Positions 11,416 to 18,401 of a stretch of DNA of 64,000 nucleotides are shown here, piece after piece. Numbering within the stretch: position 1 is the stretch's first letter; every line of letters starts with the position of its first letter. This DNA is from an uncultured Candidatus Actinomarinales bacterium. GTDB lineage: Bacteria; Actinomycetota; Acidimicrobiia; Actinomarinales; Actinomarinaceae. Under the pieces are notes generated by a model, which worked only from the letters and a program-made list of their open reading frames with translations, searched no databases and was not told where the DNA came from. The stretch lies in NCBI GenBank assembly GCA_943840565.1, contig CALSUY010000001.1:248001-312000 (forward strand), written 5' to 3'. The position numbers and the translations under genes were made by a program.

Positions 11416-12474
11416 CTATTTGTTTTTTATTGATTCCAGTACAGCATCTCCAACTTCAGAAGTTGTAAGACCCATTTTTCCAGCTGAAAGAGAGTCTAAG
11501 TTTTGTGCTGTAGCAATTATTGCATCTTCGATAGCTTGACCATAATCAGATTCACCTAATTGAGTGACCATCATTGAAGCAGCTGCAATGCAAGCAAGGG
11601 GATTGATAATATTTTTACCTGTATATTTAGGTGCAGAGCCACCAATAGGTTCAAACATAGATACGCCCTCTGGATTAATATTACCTCCAGCAGCTATTCC
11701 CATCCCACCCTGGATCATTGCTCCTAAATCAGTAATGATGTCTCCAAACATATTATCGGTAACTATAACGTCAAACCATTCTGGATTTTTTACCATCCAC
11801 ATACAAACTGCATCAACATGTCCATAATCTGTTTCTATTTCAGGGTAATCTTTTGCAATATCGTAAAATATCCGCTCCCACAAATCATGTGCATATGTCA
11901 AAACGTTGGTTTTTGCACATAGAGTAATTTTCTTTCTATTGTTATTTTTGGCATACTCAAAGGCATATAAAATGCATCGGTGGATAGCTTTGTATGTGTT
12001 TATTGACTCCTGAGTAGCAACTTCACTCTCTGTACCATAATGGATATATCCTCCAGCTCCAGCATAGAGGCCTTCAGTGTTCTCACGGACTACAGTAAAA
12101 TTTATATCTTCAGGTTTTTTATTCGCTAGGGGAGTCTCGACTCCCGGATATAAGACAACTGGACGCAAATTTATGTACTGATCAAATTCTTTTCTTAGCT
12201 TTAATAAGATTCCTTGTTCTAATATTCCAGGCTTTACATCAGGGTGTCCTATAGCTCCAAGAAGAATAGAATCACTGCTCCCAAGTTCTTCGATATCTTT
12301 ATCAGTGACAAGCTCCTGTGTCTTTAAATATCTTTCTCCACCAAGATCATTTACAGTAAAGTTAAAATTAATTCCATAATCTGCTTGAGTTTTTTGTAGA
12401 ACTTTTACAGCTTCATTGACTACTTCTGGACCTGTCCCATCACCTGCTAAAAGAGATATATTATATTCTTTCAT
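11416..12474 (-). CDS. leuB: 3-isopropylmalate dehydrogenase
   Basis: A 352-residue beta-decarboxylating dehydrogenase. The N-terminal SLLAGDGTGPEVVNEA, the substrate-binding arginines in LKLRKEFDQYINLRP, VVRENTEGLYAG, and the metal-binding DNMFGDIITDLGA followed by EPIGGSAPKYTGKNIINPLA are all present. It oxidises 3-isopropylmalate to the leucine precursor. The Thr in GDGTGPE (usually Ile) and overall form mean that a related isocitrate or tartrate dehydrogenase activity cannot be excluded from sequence, but location directly after leuA (sharing one base) makes LeuB the natural call. LeuCD, needed for the step between, is not in the window. Confidence 0.92.
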   Translation of the reverse strand: MKEYNISLLAGDGTGPEVVNEAVKVLQKTQADYGINFNFTVNDLGGERYLKTQELVTDKDIEELGSSDSILLGAIGHPDVKPGILEQGILLKLRKEFDQYINLRPVVLYPGVETPLANKKPEDINFTVVRENTEGLYAGAGGYIHYGTESEVATQESINTYKAIHRCILYAFEYAKNNNRKKITLCAKTNVLTYAHDLWERIFYDIAKDYPEIETDYGHVDAVCMWMVKNPEWFDVIVTDNMFGDIITDLGAMIQGGMGIAAGGNINPEGVSMFEPIGGSAPKYTGKNIINPLACIAAASMMVTQLGESDYGQAIEDAIIATAQNLDSLSAGKMGLTTSEVGDAVLESIKNK

Positions 12475-13964
12475 TATCTATTAAGAGCATTTAAAAAGGA
12501 TTCAACTGAACCCTGTACAACATCAGTTGATACTGCCCTACCTTGTTTCAAATTGTGACCGTCATTTATTATTGTTACGATTTCAGCAGTAGCATCAGCT
12601 CCTTTGGTTATGCTTTCAACTCTATAATCAATAAGAGTCGCATCTGTTTCTAATATTTTTTTAACCGCTGTAAATGCTGCATGTATCATTCCATCTCCTT
12701 CAGCTTCCTCAGTCAACTCTTTGCCGTGAACATCTAGAGTAACTCTAGCAGATGCATATTGATCTTTGCTATTTACGGAAACTGATACTAATTTTATCTC
12801 TGAAGAAGATGTTTCAACTTGTCCCACAATTGCACGAAGTTCATTTTCAACAATTTCACCTTTTCTATCAGCTAGCTTCTTGAAAGTGTCAAAACTTGAA
12901 TTAAATGCTTCCTCATCTAATTCTATATTCAATTTGTCTAATGCATCTTTAAATCCAGCACGTCCAGAATGCTTACCAAGGATAATTTTTGCCTCTTGAC
13001 CAACAGAATCTGGAGTCATAATTTCATATGTCATACTATTTCTTAAATAGCCATGTTGATGTATTCCAGATTCATGACTAAATGCATTCTTCCCAACTAC
13101 TGCTTTATTATATTGAACTGGATATCCCGTTAATTTTGATACCAGTCTTGAGGTTTCTAAGATTTCAGTTGTTTCGGCATTAATATCAACTCCATATTGA
13201 TCCTGTCTAGTTTTCACCGCCATTATTATTTCCTCAGTAGAAGTATTACCAGCTCTTTCACCAATACCATTAATAGCACCTTCAATCTGTCTGGCTCCAG
13301 CTTTAATCGCTGTTAAAGAGTTTGCGACAGCAAGGCCTAAATCATTGTGACAATGGGTAGAAATAATAATATCTTCATTTTTACCTTTAACTTTATCGTA
13401 AACACCCTTGAGGAGCTCTAAGTAATCAGAAGGTGTGGCGTAGCCTACTGTGTCGGGAACATTAATGGTAGTCGCACCTTCTTCAACTGCTACTTTAAGT
13501 ATTTCTATAAGAAAATCTTTATCAGTTCGTGTTGCATCTTGCGCTGAGAATTCAATATCATCACATAAATTTTTTGCATAACGTACTGACTCTTTTGCAT
13601 CATGGAGGACTTCTTCTTTAGTTTTTCTTAGCATATGTTCCATGTGTATATCAGAGGTGGAAGTAAAGACGTGAATTCTTGATTTTTTAGCAACCTTGAT
13701 AGCTTCCCATGCTTTTTCGATATCATCAGGAACACACCTGGCGAGAGAGGCTATTGTTGAATTTTGAATATTTTTAGCAATTAAGTTCACACCATCCCAA
13801 TCGCCAGGGGATGATGCTGCAAATCCAGCTTCAATGACATCAACTTTCAATTTTTCTAATTGTTGAGCAATTAATAATTTTTCAGAGGGAGTAAGAGCTA
13901 TCCCTGGACTCTGTTCACCATCTCTAAGAGTGGTGTCAAAAATAATAAGTTGATCTTCACTCAT
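12474..13964 (-). CDS. leuA: 2-isopropylmalate synthase
   Basis: A 496-residue enzyme with the catalytic TIM barrel ([12 protein letters not shown] near residue 10, [15 protein letters not shown] near residue 203, GIGERAGN near residue 235) and a C-terminal LeuA regulatory domain (about 365-490) where leucine inhibits. It condenses acetyl-CoA with 2-oxoisovalerate. This is the shorter type 1 LeuA; the long 600-residue form known from mycobacteria and corynebacteria is not what is seen here. It overlaps ilvC by 4 bases and shares one base with leuB. Confidence 0.95.
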
Positions 13965-14977
13965 TTGTCTTTTTTAACATCCTTTGCGCTCAAGAATGGC
14001 ATCATAGATCTAAGCTCTTTACCAACCGATTCAATTTGATGTTGCGAAGCCTCTTCTCTTTTTTGATTTAAAAAGGGAGAACCTTCTCTTGATTGAGCCA
14101 TAAATTCTTTTGCAAATGAACCAGATTGAATTTCTTCAAGAACTTTTTTCATTTCTTTCTTTGTATCTTCATTTACAATACGTGGTCCCCTTGAAAAATC
14201 ACCATATTCTGCAGTATCCGAAATTGAATGTCTCATCCACTCAAAACCGCCTTCGTACATAAGGTCAACAATCAATTTAACTTCATGTAAAGTTTCAAAA
14301 TATGCACTTTCAGGCTGATATCCAGCTTCAACTAATGTCTCAAATCCATTTTTGATTAATTCAGTAAGGCCACCACAAAGTACAACTTGTTCTCCAAATA
14401 AATCAGTCTCAGTTTCTTCTTTAAAAGTTGTATCTAGAATTCCAGCTCTTCCACCACCAATTGCCGATGCATATGAGAGTGCAAGCTCATGTGTGTTTCC
14501 GTTAGTATCATTTTCTACTGCTACTAAGCAGGGCATGCCTGAACCTTCTTCATAAGTTCTTCTTAATAAGTGACCAGGTCCCTTTGGAGCTACCATAGCA
14601 ACTGAAATATCTTCTCTTGGTTTTATTTCATTAAAGTGAATGTTAAAACCATGCGCAAAAAATAAAGTTGAATTTTCCTTCATGACTGGGGCTATTGTTT
14701 CGTTATAAACATCAGCCATTAATTGATCAGGAAGAAGCAACATTACAACTTCTGAATTTGAGACAGCATCTTCAACATTGGATACATTGAGACCCATTTC
14801 TTTCGCTCTTGTAAAAGTTTCAGAAGTTTCTCTTAACCCAACAGTTACGTCTACTCCTGATTCGTGAAGATTTAATGCATGAGCGTGTCCTTGGCTTCCA
14901 AAACCAATTACTGCAACTTTCTTTTCCTTTATTAAGTCCTGATTAATTTGATCATCATAAATGATTTTTGTATCCAT
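13961..14977 (-). CDS. ilvC: Ketol-acid reductoisomerase (NADP+)
   Basis: A 338-residue class I enzyme: the Rossmann motif [15 protein letters not shown] near residue 22, VAPKGPGH near residue 130, and the metal-binding region [12 protein letters not shown] with the C-terminal helical domain including [10 protein letters not shown]. It converts acetolactate and acetohydroxybutyrate to the dihydroxy acids used by IlvD (18433). Fourteen bases separate it from ilvN, with an AGGAG-like Shine-Dalgarno (complement of ctcct near 14986-14991) before the ATG. Overlaps leuA by 4 bases. Confidence 0.97.
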
Positions 14978-14991
14978 ATAATTTCTCCTTT

Positions 14992-15465
14992 TTATAAATT
15001 AGATTGAATAGCTATTCTTCCGCCACGAATCATTTCAATAATTCCAAACGGTTTCATTAGGTTTTCAAACTTTTTCAATTCTTTAGATGTACCAGTTAGC
15101 TCAAAAACTGCATAATCCTGTCCCACATCAACAGATTTTGCGCCTGATAAATTTGCTTTTTCTATAACTGATGTTTGAGAATCTTTGTTGATTGAGACTT
15201 TCATTAGCAGTACTTCGGATTCAATCGTGTTGTCAGGATCTAGTTCTACGATTTTTATGACATTTATTAATTTGTTTAACTGTTTTTTTACTTGCTCTAC
15301 CGATTCAAGCTCTGTAACAATTGTCATCTTTGATCTTCCATCAATATTTGTTGGACCTACGGAAAGTGAATTAATATTAAAGCCTCTCCTTGAAATTGTT
15401 GAAGAAATTCTTGCTAATACACCCGGTTTGTCTTCAACAAGCACACTCAAAATTCTTTCACTCAT
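14992..15465 (-). CDS. ilvN: Acetolactate synthase small (regulatory) subunit
   Basis: A 157-residue regulatory subunit with an N-terminal ACT domain ([28 protein letters not shown]) and a C-terminal domain ending near MIRGGRIAI. It binds valine and activates/inhibits IlvB. Start overlaps the ilvB stop by 4 bases; normal length for the ilvN/ilvH family. Confidence 0.95.
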
Positions 15466-17174
15466 ATTTTTTTCAAATCCTCTTCATTTAGGATGATTAC
15501 ATCATTACTACCCCCAGCAGGAACCATAGGGAAAACCATATCATCTGGATCAACAACACAGTCGACAAGTACCGGCTTATCATTAATTTCAAGCATTTTT
15601 TCAAATACATCTTTTACTTCGGACTTTTGTTCCATTCTTAGTCCGACAGCTCCCATAGCTTCAGCAAGTTTTACATAGTCAGGGGTGTGATGGGTAAGTT
15701 CAGAAGCTGAAAAACGATTCTTATAAAATATTTTTTGCCACTGTCTCACCATTCCATGATTTCCATTATTGAAAACAACTATTTTCAGAGGGATGTTTTC
15801 TGTAGAAGCTGTTATTAGTTCCTGACAAGTCATCTGAAAACAACCGTCTCCATCTAAAGAAAGAACCTGTCTATCAGGATATGCTGCTTTTGCTCCTATA
15901 GCTGCTGGCAGGGAATATCCCATGGTTCCTAATCCTCCAGAATTTAACCAAGTGTTTGGTTTTGTAAATTTCCAATGTAAAGATATCCACATTTGATGCT
16001 GACCAACTCCCGAAACTACAATTGAGTCATCCTCTGACATTTTTTGAAGTTCTTCAAGTACATAAGGAACTTTTAATGGACCATCTTCATCTTGAGTGAA
16101 GGTGAGGGGATAGCTTTCTCTCATTTCATTAATTTCTTGAATCCAGTTGGAAGTTTCTAGTTTGGTATCTCCAAGCTTATCAATAAGACCTTTGATAACA
16201 CTTTTTGCATCTCCAACTATAGGTACTTCCGCATCTCTTACTTTTCCAATTTCAGCTGGATCTATATCAGCATGAATAACTTTTGCATTTTGAGCAAAAA
16301 ACTTTGGATTTGCTGTTACTCGATCATCAAACCTTACACCTATTGCAATTAATAAATCTGAGTTCTGAATCGAAGTTGTGGCGGTATAGTTCCCATGCAT
16401 ACCTGGCATTCCTAAACATAGTTCATGACCATCAGGAAATGCACCTCTACCCATAAGGGTTGTAACCACTGGAATGTTGAATTTCTGAGCTAGATCAAAT
16501 AACTCAATATTTGCCTTTGAGTGAATAATTCCTCCACCGACATATAAAAGAGGTTTCTTAGAGTCTTTGATTAAGTTTACTGCCTGTTGAATCATTTTTG
16601 GATTTGCATCAAGAGTAGGTTTGTATCCTGGTAAATCTACTAATTTTGGCTCAATCCATTTTGCTTTTTGGTTAAGAATATCTTTTGGTATATCTACTAG
16701 AACTGGTCCCGGTCTTCCGGTAGTAGCAATATGTTTTGCCTCAAGTAGTACTTGAGGAATCTCACTAGCGTCGGTAATCAGATAATTATGCTTTGTTGCT
16801 GCCATTGTGAGACCAACTGTGTATGCCTCTTGGAAAGCATCATTACCAATAGCTTCAGTAGCAACTTGACCTGTTATAGCTAGAAGGGGGGTTGAATCCA
16901 TTAAAGCATTGTTTAATGAAGTTATTAAGTTAGTAGCACCAGGTCCAGAAGTAGCAATTACTACACCTAACTCACCAGTTGCCTGAGCATAACCCTCAGC
17001 CATGTGACCCGATCCTTGTTCATGTCTAGCTAAAATATGTCTTATCGGGCTGTCGTAAAGTGGATCATACGCTGGAAGGATTGCACCACCAGGTACGCCA
17101 AAAATGGTAGAGACTTTTAAATGTTCCAAACCTCTAATAACAAGCTCTGCGCCTGACAATAATTTTTCTTCCAT
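15462..17174 (-). CDS. ilvB: Acetolactate synthase large subunit
   Basis: A 570-residue ThDP enzyme. The N-terminal domain holds the catalytic Glu (HEQGSGHMAEGYAQATG), the middle FAD-like domain follows, and the C-terminal domain has the ThDP-Mg motif LDGDGCFQMTCQEL with NNGNHGMVRQW. It makes acetolactate or acetohydroxybutyrate, the first common step of branched-chain amino acid synthesis. The ATG at 17174 is preceded by an AAGGA Shine-Dalgarno at 4-base spacing, placed directly after a strong intrinsic terminator, so expression should depend on read-through of an attenuator (see separate entries). First structural gene of the long minus-strand run to ccmG. Confidence 0.97.
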   Translation of the reverse strand: MEEKLLSGAELVIRGLEHLKVSTIFGVPGGAILPAYDPLYDSPIRHILARHEQGSGHMAEGYAQATGELGVVIATSGPGATNLITSLNNALMDSTPLLAITGQVATEAIGNDAFQEAYTVGLTMAATKHNYLITDASEIPQVLLEAKHIATTGRPGPVLVDIPKDILNQKAKWIEPKLVDLPGYKPTLDANPKMIQQAVNLIKDSKKPLLYVGGGIIHSKANIELFDLAQKFNIPVVTTLMGRGAFPDGHELCLGMPGMHGNYTATTSIQNSDLLIAIGVRFDDRVTANPKFFAQNAKVIHADIDPAEIGKVRDAEVPIVGDAKSVIKGLIDKLGDTKLETSNWIQEINEMRESYPLTFTQDEDGPLKVPYVLEELQKMSEDDSIVVSGVGQHQMWISLHWKFTKPNTWLNSGGLGTMGYSLPAAIGAKAAYPDRQVLSLDGDGCFQMTCQELITASTENIPLKIVVFNNGNHGMVRQWQKIFYKNRFSASELTHHTPDYVKLAEAMGAVGLRMEQKSEVKDVFEKMLEINDKPVLVDCVVDPDDMVFPMVPAGGSNDVIILNEEDLKKI

Positions 17175-17183
17175 AACATCCTT

Positions 17184-17211
17184 AAAAAAAAACCTCCCTT
17201 TTTTTGGGAGG
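17184..17211 (-). terminator. Intrinsic terminator in the ilvB leader (attenuator)
   Basis: On the minus strand CCTCCC, a loop of seven A, GGGAGG and then nine T in a row: a perfect six-base-pair GC-rich stem with a U9 tract. It lies 9 bases upstream of the ilvB ATG and downstream of a short reading frame rich in Leu, Val and Ile codons. A terminator between promoter and the first structural gene is the mark of attenuation control. It is the only canonical hairpin-plus-U-tract terminator I found in the window. Confidence 0.88.
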
Positions 17212-17235
17212 CGCTCATCACAAAAAAGTGAGCGC
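17211..17235 (-). promoter_or_regulatory. Leader hairpin preceding the ilvB attenuator terminator
   Basis: GCGCTC (17235-17230) pairs with GAGCGC (17216-17211). The 5' arm begins at the stop codon of the leader peptide, so a ribosome finishing the peptide would cover it. The same arm (AGCGCT, 17236-17231) can instead pair with either of two tandem AGTGCT copies (17253-17248 and 17247-17242) inside the leader codons, giving the mutually exclusive pairs expected of an attenuator. Its overlap with the terminator stem is only one base, so how strongly it competes is unclear. Confidence 0.55.
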
Positions 17236-17285
17236 TACATAAGCACTAGCACTAATAATGTAATTAAGACATATAGTTTTTTCAT
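17235..17285 (-). CDS. ilv leader peptide (attenuation)
   Basis: A 16-codon frame, MKKLYVLITLLVLVLM then TAG, in which 10 residues are branched-chain (6 Leu, 3 Val, 1 Ile), mostly consecutive. It is followed by alternative hairpins and the terminator before ilvB. Slow decoding when charged Leu/Val/Ile tRNAs are scarce would be expected to prevent termination and switch on the biosynthetic operon. A -10-like TATAGT 8 bases before the ATG suggests that the leader is translated from an almost leaderless mRNA. A hydrophobic start of a membrane protein can look similar, but the frame closes after 16 codons and the context is exact. Confidence 0.8.
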   Translation of the reverse strand: MKKLYVLITLLVLVLM

Positions 17286-17291
17286 TAAATC

Positions 17292-17303
17292 TAACTATAG
17301 TTA
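17292..17303. promoter_or_regulatory. Palindromic bidirectional promoter between ilv leader and queG
   Basis: TAACTATAGTTA is a perfect 12-base palindrome. It contains TATAGT in both directions: on the minus strand 8 bases before the ilv leader ATG (17285), on the plus strand 14 bases before the queG-like ATG (17316). Thus both divergent transcripts could start from overlapping -10 boxes, or the palindrome could be a repressor site over the promoter. Confidence 0.5.
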
Positions 17304-17315
17304 AACCTGATAAAA

Positions 17316-18401
17316 ATGAAAGAAAAAAACCTATTTAATTATCTCGAAAGTCATAATATAGACGTTCCAGAAAATATAAATCTAGCTGTAATTTCACTCC
17401 CTTCATTAATAGATAAATCAGTTTTAATCCAAGAAGCAAAATCTAATAACAGACATGCAAACATGAAATTTACATTCTCAAATCCTAAGTATTCTGGACT
17501 TGGTGATAAATTTGGATGGGCAAAATCTTGTATAATAATTTCATATAACTACTTTCCAAGATCATCAAATAATCACTCTTTTAGAGCTGGTGATGGAGCT
17601 ATAGCTTTATTTGCTTTAGAAGATCATTACAAACCACTAAATAAGTTTATAAATGAACTTTCAAATCTGTTTAATAATGAAGGGATTCAATCACAACAAT
17701 TTATTGATAGTCCACAACACTACGACAGAATGTTTTTTAACTCATCGGGACTAGGATGGCAGGGAAAAAGTACAATGATGTTATCACCGGGAATAGGTCC
17801 GTGGCAGTTAATTGGCAATCTTTACACTGAGGAACAATTTCTAAGTACAGAAGAAAAATCATTCTCATGTGGAAGCTGCAATATGTGTCAAATCTCATGT
17901 CCAACGGGAGCGTTAGATGAGGAATATAGACTTGACTCTAATAAGTGTTTGTCATATTGGTTACAATCTCCAGATATTATTCCAGAAGATATGAGAATAA
18001 ATATAGGTAATAGATTTTATGGCTGTGACGAATGCCTAATTTCATGCCCACCAGGGCAGACCAAGGAGTTTGACATCTCGGAAACGAATACAGTCGATTT
18101 AAAAAAAATTCTAACCATGTCAAATGAAGATTTGGTTGATAAATATTCATGGTTTTATATCCCAAAAAGAAATGGCGACTTTCTTAAAAGGAATGCATTA
18201 ATAGCACTTGCAAATAATCCAGATGAAGATGCACTTAAAATAATTTACACTCTCTTAAAATCTGATTCTGAAATTATTCGCTTTTACGCAATATGGGCTA
18301 TCTGGAAAATATCTCAATTTAAAGATATTGAAAATTATTATGATGTTGATCTTGAACCAAGCGACCTTGTAAAGAACGAATATCTAAGGCTTATAAAATG
18401 A
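17316..18401 (+). CDS. queG: Epoxyqueuosine reductase-like iron-sulfur protein (QueG family)
   Basis: 361 residues. The N-terminal cobalamin-binding DUF1730-like region includes SSGLGWQGKSTMMLSPG (family form AGLGWIGKN). A bacterial ferredoxin-type region supplies eight cysteines in CGSCNMCQISCPTGAL and YGCDECLISCPPG for two 4Fe-4S clusters, with IGNRFYGCDEC a QueG hallmark. The C-terminus (about 270-361) looks like HEAT-type helices. QueG reduces epoxyqueuosine to queuosine in tRNA position 34. The sequence is divergent around the active site (DSPQHYDR where DSAPVMER is common), so it may be a side branch. No other queuosine gene is nearby. Confidence 0.82.
   Translation: MKEKNLFNYLESHNIDVPENINLAVISLPSLIDKSVLIQEAKSNNRHANMKFTFSNPKYSGLGDKFGWAKSCIIISYNYFPRSSNNHSFRAGDGAIALFALEDHYKPLNKFINELSNLFNNEGIQSQQFIDSPQHYDRMFFNSSGLGWQGKSTMMLSPGIGPWQLIGNLYTEEQFLSTEEKSFSCGSCNMCQISCPTGALDEEYRLDSNKCLSYWLQSPDIIPEDMRINIGNRFYGCDECLISCPPGQTKEFDISETNTVDLKKILTMSNEDLVDKYSWFYIPKRNGDFLKRNALIALANNPDEDALKIIYTLLKSDSEIIRFYAIWAIWKISQFKDIENYYDVDLEPSDLVKNEYLRLIK

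Follow-up and report, generated by a model that had tools for sequence, protein, structure and literature searches.

In the attenuators of the enteric ilv and trp operons, the position of the ribosome on the leader decides between a protector hairpin (1:2) and an antiterminator hairpin (2:3), and region 3 is extensively common to the antiterminator and the terminator (3:4).

In actinobacteria, attenuation ahead of ilvB has experimental support in Corynebacterium (PMC10272879, PMC11857589) and in mycobacteria (PMC13236596). In the ilvBNC operon of C. glutamicum, the leader start codon and the transcription start are 1 nt apart, and alterations at the terminator base increased the synthesis of valine by an order of magnitude (PMC11857589). 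In the leader of mycobacterial ilvB1, replacement of the LVVI codons abolished induction (PMC13236596). Seliverstov 2005 predicted ilvB leader peptides and terminators in Corynebacterium, Mycobacterium, and Streptomyces, leaving the mode of regulation open, and the same paper cites codon substitutions in the ilvB leader of Streptomyces coelicolor that had no effect on regulation (PMC1262725). The terminator of an attenuator is, as a rule, separated from the leader gene by more than 20 bp, and in an E. coli test system a ribosome at the stop codon no longer repressed the terminator once the distance reached 27 nt (PMC4824070). Among the matches listed in a search of the open-licence literature, no paper on leader peptides, attenuation, or regulation named Actinomarina or Acidimicrobiia.

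Here, we describe a conserved leader ahead of ilvB in Actinomarina which, judging from comparative sequence evidence, is probably a ribosome-mediated attenuator, and which has the same layout as leaders in most of the Acidimicrobiia examined. These leaders join those known ahead of ilvB in Corynebacterium and Mycobacterium. They also point to a gap in the textbook account, since most of the members examined can form the presumed antiterminator and the terminator simultaneously.

A compact leader ahead of the ilvBNC-leuAB string

The window, by which we mean the whole analyzed stretch of 64,000 nucleotides, belongs to a genome of 640 kb. It carries ilvB, ilvN, ilvC, leuA, and leuB as one minus-strand string, in which neighbors overlap or lie no more than 14 nt apart. 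The features discussed below are as follows.

17299 to 17184, minus strand: whole element (-10 box, 16-codon leader ORF, hairpin P1, terminator T), ahead of ilvB
17294 to 17299, minus strand: TATAGT, putative -10 box for ilv transcription; the leader ATG follows after 8 nt, so that the leader ORF is probably leaderless
17235 to 17285, minus strand: leader ORF MKKLYVLITLLVLVLM, terminated by TAG, its Leu/Val codons spanning -7 to -2
17242 to 17253, minus strand: region 1, two AGTGCT copies (17253-17248 and 17247-17242) in codons -6 to -2
17231 to 17236, minus strand: region 2, AGCGCT, overlapping the stop codon; partners are region 1 (protector hairpin 1:2) or region 3 (P1)
17211 to 17235, minus strand: P1, a hairpin proposed as the antiterminator, with its 5' arm at 17235-17229 and its 3' arm at 17217-17211
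17184 to 17212, minus strand: intrinsic terminator T, stem and U-tract, CCTCCC (17211-17206), A7, GGGAGG (17198-17193), T9 (17192-17184), with a possible outer G-U wobble
15462 to 17174, minus strand: ilvB, acetolactate synthase large subunit (NCBIfam TIGR00118, 762 bits, cut-off 538), start ATG at 17174
11416 to 15465, minus strand: ilvN, ilvC, leuA, and leuB (NCBIfam NF008864, NF004017, NF002086, and NF002898, each above its cut-off)

The leader ORF reads ATG AAA AAA CTA TAT GTC TTA ATT ACA TTA TTA GTG CTA GTG CTT ATG TAG, with 10 of its 16 codons specifying branched-chain amino acids (BCAA; 6 Leu, 3 Val, and 1 Ile). P1 begins inside the stop codon, and its stem GCGCTC/GAGCGC can lengthen to 7 bp (GCGCTCA/TGAGCGC). 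T ends 9 nt upstream of ilvB and has C17211 in common with P1, plus the possible G17212-U17192 wobble. A sequence-only reading that preceded this analysis had named the 16-codon frame, the AGTGCT/AGCGCT and GCGCTC/GAGCGC pairings, and the terminator, and each of these proved accurate in sequence and position.

The fold of the 116-nt leader had a z score of -2.9, with 1 of 200 dinucleotide shuffles equally stable, and its minimum-energy structure comprised the AGTGCT/AGCGCT hairpin and the terminator, without P1. Predicted energies were -6.2 kcal/mol for the 1:2 hairpin and -11.0 kcal/mol for P1. With the pattern CTCCCN{3,13}GGGAGNTTTTT, T was the sole match in the window's genome, which is estimated to be 71% complete. 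Rfam 15 (4227 models) detected only RNase P and one tRNA in the window at gathering score; seven weak matches at 17150-17420 were all far below their own gathering scores, and there were no matches across the loci of 20 relatives.

Upstream of the element, queG is divergent from ilvB and starts at 17316 (model match of 177 bits, below the cut-off of 200), with ilvD downstream of it. Because queG is divergent, T is confined to transcripts heading for ilvB. Only about 30 bp (17286-17316) separate the predicted start of the leader from that of queG on the other strand, so that divergent promoters would overlap.

Comparison with described attenuators

As in the enteric attenuators, the window offers a candidate 1:2 protector and a candidate 2:3 antiterminator between which the ribosome position would decide; unlike their extensively shared region 3, the proposed antiterminator and the terminator of the window share one base plus a wobble.

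Among the models compared, the closest is the three-hairpin ilvBNC attenuator of C. glutamicum (PMC11857589), more so than the enteric one. Common to both are an ilvBNC operon with a leader ORF of about 15 to 17 codons (ilvB-II motif; PMC11857589, PMC10272879), and three hairpins acting or proposed to act as antiantiterminator, antiterminator, and terminator with a very small overlap between the latter two. A leader ORF at the transcript start is known for C. glutamicum, and the position of TATAGT suggests the same for the window. In C. glutamicum, three bases (GCC) are shared, compared with one base plus the wobble here. Moreover, the Leu/Val codons of the window reach codon -2 and its stop codon lies within P1, whereas the C. 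glutamicum peptide MTIIRLVVVTARRLP continues several codons beyond its valines.

The mycobacterial ilvB1 leader likewise combines an upstream ORF rich in BCAA codons with a terminator, and a ribosome at its stop codon has been proposed to mask the antiterminator; it differs in its codons (LVVI), in its 166-nt 5' leader, and in being described as two mutually exclusive structures (PMC13236596). The candidates of Seliverstov 2005 resemble the window in having a poly-U terminator and, ahead of ilvB, a short ORF that contains Ile/Val/Leu runs; Acidimicrobiia, a protector hairpin, and P1-T spacing were not found in the part of that paper covered (PMC1262725). The window element appears to be a compact variant that extends the known actinobacterial ilvB leader family.

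Conservation in the genus Actinomarina

We searched 35 genomes of the genus, the window's included; draft genomes within Actinomarina are 0.6 to 1.1 Mb in size. Full-length ilvB was obtained from 26; in four there was no ilvB match, in two the sole match was a weak paralogue, and in one it covered just the C-terminal part. Drafts without a full ilvB match were estimated to be 63 to 90% complete. One match lacking the first 115 ilvB codons (L027) was left out, and five further genus loci with an ilvB start were added, giving 31 genus loci. The IlvB of the window is 99% identical to that of one Actinomycetota bacterium MAG and 81 to 86% identical to many IlvBs of Candidatus Actinomarina, Actinomarinales, or the OCS155 cluster, so that the source is probably a marine bacterium of Actinomarina type within the Acidimicrobiia. 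A 3.6-kb contig in a Gammaproteobacteria MAG (L154) encodes an IlvB 86% identical to that of the window and may be a misbinned Actinomarina contig.

The complete element, consisting of an ATG, an open ORF of 15 to 16 codons, TAG, P1 starting from the stop codon, and T with its stem and U-tract, was present in all 31 genus loci, which represent 25 distinct leaders. In every locus, each of codons -6 to -2 encodes Leu, Val, or Ile, and the sole length change seen among the leaders is one whole codon (L019). The distance from the stop codon to the first G-C pair of T is 22 to 23 nt, and the T stem ends 17 to 40 nt before ilvB. P1 and T share one base in 25 loci and two in 6. TATAGT lies 7 to 8 nt ahead of the leader ATG in 31/31 loci. 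A polymerase starting within a few bases of this ATG would leave no room for a Shine-Dalgarno site.

P1 (GCGCTC/GAGCGC) is invariant in the genus: pair positions 1 to 5 after the stop codon are identical in 23/23 distinct elements, so that these first five pairs provide no covariation, and variation is seen in the P1 apex and the T loop. Invariance of regions 2 and 3 would be expected if region 2 serves two pairings. All 25 distinct leaders have AGTGCT or GGTGCT at position -16, position -10, or both, counted from the stop codon, and this (A/G)GTGCT motif shifts between codons -5/-4 and -3/-2. Two tandem AGTGCT copies, as named in the sequence-only reading, are present in the window but are not essential as a pair, since relatives retain either one. 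Compared with synonymous redraws, the protector pairing 1:2 was only modestly better (mean z of -0.98; z below -1 in 15 of the 25 leaders, which are related and not independent).

Occurrence in other Acidimicrobiia

A total of 296 genomes of the class Acidimicrobiia were searched, of which at least 267 had an IlvB match at an E value of 1e-150 or better. From the matches listed, 75 loci were chosen for family spread, favoring IlvBs close to the query, and three others were added. Among these 78 non-genus loci, the element was found in 75, three elements (L087, L091, and L105) being placed by hand; one further genome (G046) has the element as well. No element was seen for G262, G069, and G044 within 450 upstream bases or in a stricter look at about 1.7 kb. 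The comparison with relatives that had been proposed as a test of the attenuation reading supported it in part, the element being conserved in 31/31 genus and 75/78 other loci.

The detector used for this survey rewarded BCAA codons; the unbiased count is that of a second detector, which ignores amino acids and seeks only the layout of ATG-initiated ORF, stop codon, hairpin, and terminator. This blind detector found the layout in 31/31 genus and 66/78 other Acidimicrobiia loci, and at least three of the four codons -5 to -2 encoded Leu, Val, or Ile in 31/31 and 65/66 of these, respectively. Among controls, it responded to 0/109 reverse complements (0/31 for the genus), 0/93 shuffled genus sequences, and 1/234 shuffled sequences of the others (mononucleotide shuffles, 3 rounds; 1/436 in total), and in the single shuffled match none of codons -5 to -2 encoded Leu, Val, or Ile. 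A+T-rich DNA commonly contains TTA, CTA, and ATT codons, which could lend some appeal to the idea of an A+T-rich stretch that merely happens to hold Leu codons and a terminator. Given the empty reverse complements and genus shuffles and the retention of the layout in 66 of the 78 other loci, we regard such a coincidence as practically negligible.

Non-genus leaders comprise 6 to 24 codons, and 9 to 16 codons in 70/75, these lengths being approximate because start codons were picked by a simple rule. BCAA codons occupy positions -2, -3, -4, and -5 in 67, 74, 73, and 67 of the 75 leaders, compared with 6/75 at position -1. The stop codon is TAG in 67, TAA in 5, and TGA in 3, and P1 starts inside its three bases in 72/75 loci. 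The first G-C pair of T lies 23 to 41 nt from the stop codon, a range that, like that of the genus, fits the rule of more than 20 bp for attenuator terminators (PMC4824070).

Outside the genus, P1 covaries, as the comparison of arms indicates. In 74 distinct non-genus elements, the P1 arms pair with their own partners at 0.92, compared with 0.53 when the 3' arms were redealt (maximum of 0.63 in 500 rounds; the sequences are related and not independent). The compared arms come from predicted hairpins, so that own-pairing values (1.00 for T) are in part built in, and solely their contrast with redealt arms is informative. RNAalifold on a MAFFT alignment of 65 elements recovered T and not P1. MAFFT had set the 3' arm of P1 out of register in several rows, which is why register-fixed arms were compared; a second alignment was imperfect too. 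The protector pairing showed no sign of enrichment outside the genus (mean z of 0.14; z below -1 in 6/74).

P1 and T are closely spaced in these leaders. The last paired base of P1 lies -3 to +8 nt from the first G-C pair of T, and at +1 to +8 nt in 70/75 loci; no G-C-pair base is common to the two in 71/75, whereas an overlap of 1 to 4 nt appears in 7/75 when measured to the outermost pair of T. The doubt raised in the sequence-only reading, namely that the antiterminator is not obvious when stems 2:3 and 3:4 share a single base, was therefore well placed: P1 and T overlap by one base and a wobble in the window, and elsewhere in the class usually not at all. An antiterminator sharing the arms of T elsewhere in the leader was considered and rejected, as the energy of upstream duplexes was on average not above that of shuffles (mean z of 0.28 to 1.33). 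In two loci (L066 and L067), the 5' arm of T is repeated after P1, giving its 3' arm two possible partners, one of which overlaps P1.

The best -10-like hexamer lies 6 to 12 nt upstream of the leader ATG in 55 of the 75 non-genus loci (L028-L030, L036-L110), often as CATACT with TTGAC or CTTGC about 17 nt further upstream by eye. The -10 score is not discriminating, with 76% of genus shuffles passing and 5/75 non-genus loci passing compared with 6% of their shuffles. Since the score does no better than in shuffles, it is the position of the -10 box that suggests leaderless leader peptides in much of the Acidimicrobiia.

Leaders of other actinobacterial classes

Forty ilvB loci of other actinobacterial classes were fetched, and 16 with a visible element were picked by hand. 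Left out were those in which no element was seen, a cut locus (L115), a near-duplicate (L124), and ambiguous ones, among them L125, L126, L128, and L131, the last with a BCAA run and a hairpin and no clear terminator. One of the stretches (L138) comprises only 79 bases up to a contig end. In two loci from genomes of about 6 Mb (L118 and L119), the leader ORF contains LVVI and continues past it, like the published mycobacterial codons. In three others (L112, L114, and L116), T lies about 390 to 420 nt upstream of ilvB, which leaves room for something else between them.

Predicted folding and a model for attenuation

We folded the RNA ahead of the ribosome at equilibrium, assuming a leading ribosome edge 13 nt downstream of the A-site codon, counted from the first base of that codon. 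Averaged over the 31 genus loci, predicted P1 formation was 0.01 without a ribosome, 0.00 with the ribosome at the stop codon, and 0.00 to 0.01 at codons -1 and -2; it rose to 0.73 when the A site held codon -3, and to 0.86 to 0.87 for codon -4 or an earlier one. The two basal pairs of T stood at 0.39 to 0.40 from codon -4 back and at 0.95 to 0.97 otherwise, including 0.96 at codon -3. The core of T remained in the stalled state (0.95 as genus mean, 1.00 in the window), so that on paper P1 does not abolish T. These values suggest, in as far as the folding model holds, that in Actinomarina P1 weakens the base of T when the ribosome is stalled on most of the Leu/Val run.

P1 is the likely antiterminator because, in this occlusion folding, it formed only with the ribosome stalled on Leu/Val codons. 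The attenuation reading first drawn from the sequence thus retains its Leu/Val-rich leader ORF, its terminator, and its two-way choice of AGCGCT, all kept in relatives, and is corrected in the identity of the antiterminator: described then as not obvious, this role probably belongs to P1, which in Actinomarina can remove the basal pairs of T.

We consider it fairly likely that the element is a ribosome-mediated transcription attenuator acting before the BCAA string ilvBNC-leuAB. RNA synthesis would start at or next to the leader ATG, such that a ribosome enters directly on the leader ORF. With BCAA plentiful, the ribosome would reach the TAG, itself part of P1, and cover the 5' arm of P1; with P1 blocked, T would form fully 22 to 23 nt past the stop codon, and transcription would end at 17192-17184. 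With no ribosome on the leader, region 1 (AGTGCT) would bind region 2 (AGCGCT), preventing P1 and again allowing T to form. When Leu or Val is short, the ribosome would stall on the Leu/Val codons and cover region 1, leaving region 2 free to form P1. With a stall at codon -4 or earlier, P1 would take from T its basal pairs C17211-G17193 and the G17212-U17192 wobble, and polymerase would read through the weakened T, perhaps helped by P1 lying against it. The start site, the stalling, and the sufficiency of basal-pair loss for read-through are all inferred. Loss of basal pairs is a plausible switch because terminator-base changes raised valine synthesis in C. glutamicum (PMC11857589).

The model draws support from the conservation of the element in 31/31 genus and 75/78 class loci, the placement of the BCAA codons, and the use of TAG in 31/31 and 67/75 leaders. 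Several observations count against it. Two regulatory codons do not behave as the model demands, since P1 does not form when the ribosome stalls at codon -2, and the base of T stays intact when it stalls at codon -3. The genus distance of 22 to 23 nt between stop codon and T is below the 27-nt limit of the E. coli test (PMC4824070), the protector pairing is only slightly favored over synonymous redraws, and codon substitutions had no effect in S. coelicolor (cited in PMC1262725). If correct, the model suggests that a streamlined ocean bacterium keeps a BCAA sensor in an RNA of about 100 nt. The more interesting point is how P1 would stop T while sharing one base with it or none.

Alternative explanations

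Outside the genus, folding with codon -4 at the A site lets P1 (0.95) and the T core (0.98) coexist and leaves the basal pairs of T unaffected (0.93), so that base-sharing at equilibrium is not the general switch. This raises the possibility, which we hold tentatively, that the leaders attenuate as proposed but that P1 blocks T sterically or kinetically, without shared bases, because a P1 folded a few nucleotides before T is not accommodated while T closes in the RNA exit channel. A terminating ribosome would unfold P1 and release T, and the overlap in Actinomarina would be a by-product of compaction. Extended to actinobacterial ilvB leaders in general, hairpin crowding might possibly replace alternative pairing: P1 would lie against T (0 to 8 nt) in or at the polymerase exit channel, its 5' arm would sit within the final part of the leader ORF or shortly past it, the terminating ribosome would switch it off by unfolding, and no base need be shared. 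Actinomarina would then represent a compacted form with an added protector hairpin. The closeness of P1 and T, set against the 14 to 234 nt between the T stem and ilvB in the same non-genus loci, suggests that adjacency itself matters. The arms of T find on average no better upstream partner than in shuffles, and P1 and T coexist in 16/16 picked leaders of other classes (0.87 to 1.00 and 0.99 to 1.00, linker of 0 to 5 nt), although three other-class leaders (L127, L134, and L136) have different-looking minimum-energy folds when longer stretches are taken. Steric blocking would be one reading of these figures; compactness might also account for the narrow spacing. Seven of the 75 loci do have the short P1-T overlap, and in 11/74 non-genus leaders an upstream stretch pairs with the 3' arm of T at more than 0.8 of T's own energy, which would make a base-sharing antiterminator possible there. 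Moreover, P1 stands at 0.94 without a ribosome outside the genus, so that an untranslated leader would read through.

Two further explanations give P1 or T a lesser role. P1 might do no more than pause polymerase and give the ribosome time to catch up, read-through being set otherwise, for example, by ribosome-polymerase contact. P1 does begin in the stop codon and would be melted by an arriving ribosome, and a ribosome that follows polymerase closely represses terminators located within about 27 nt of the stop codon (PMC4824070), a range that includes the genus distance. By our reasoning, such a pause provides no state in which T fails under starvation, and ribosome proximity would promote read-through under amino acid sufficiency, opposite to what a biosynthetic operon needs; we therefore find it unlikely. 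Even less probable, in our estimation, is a leader ORF that acts on translation or mRNA stability, with T as a constitutive partial terminator setting a basal level. A T core predicted in every ribosome state would suit this arrangement, but the T stem ends before ilvB in the genus and elsewhere alike, leaving the start uncovered, and the fixed adjacency of P1 and T would go unexplained. Loss of basal pairs to P1 under stalling remains our preferred account for Actinomarina.

Codon choice in the leaders

The regulatory codons of C. glutamicum are CUU and GUA, the latter having been named for mycobacteria also. Over the last seven positions, the genus leaders use TTA (59), GTG (41), CTT (36), CTA (26), and GTA (13). 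In the 75 non-genus leaders, GTA (96) and CTT (48) were among the three commonest codons at these positions. GTA is by far the commonest Val codon there, with 96 occurrences compared with 20 of GTC and 19 of GTT, though many of the stretches look GC-rich.
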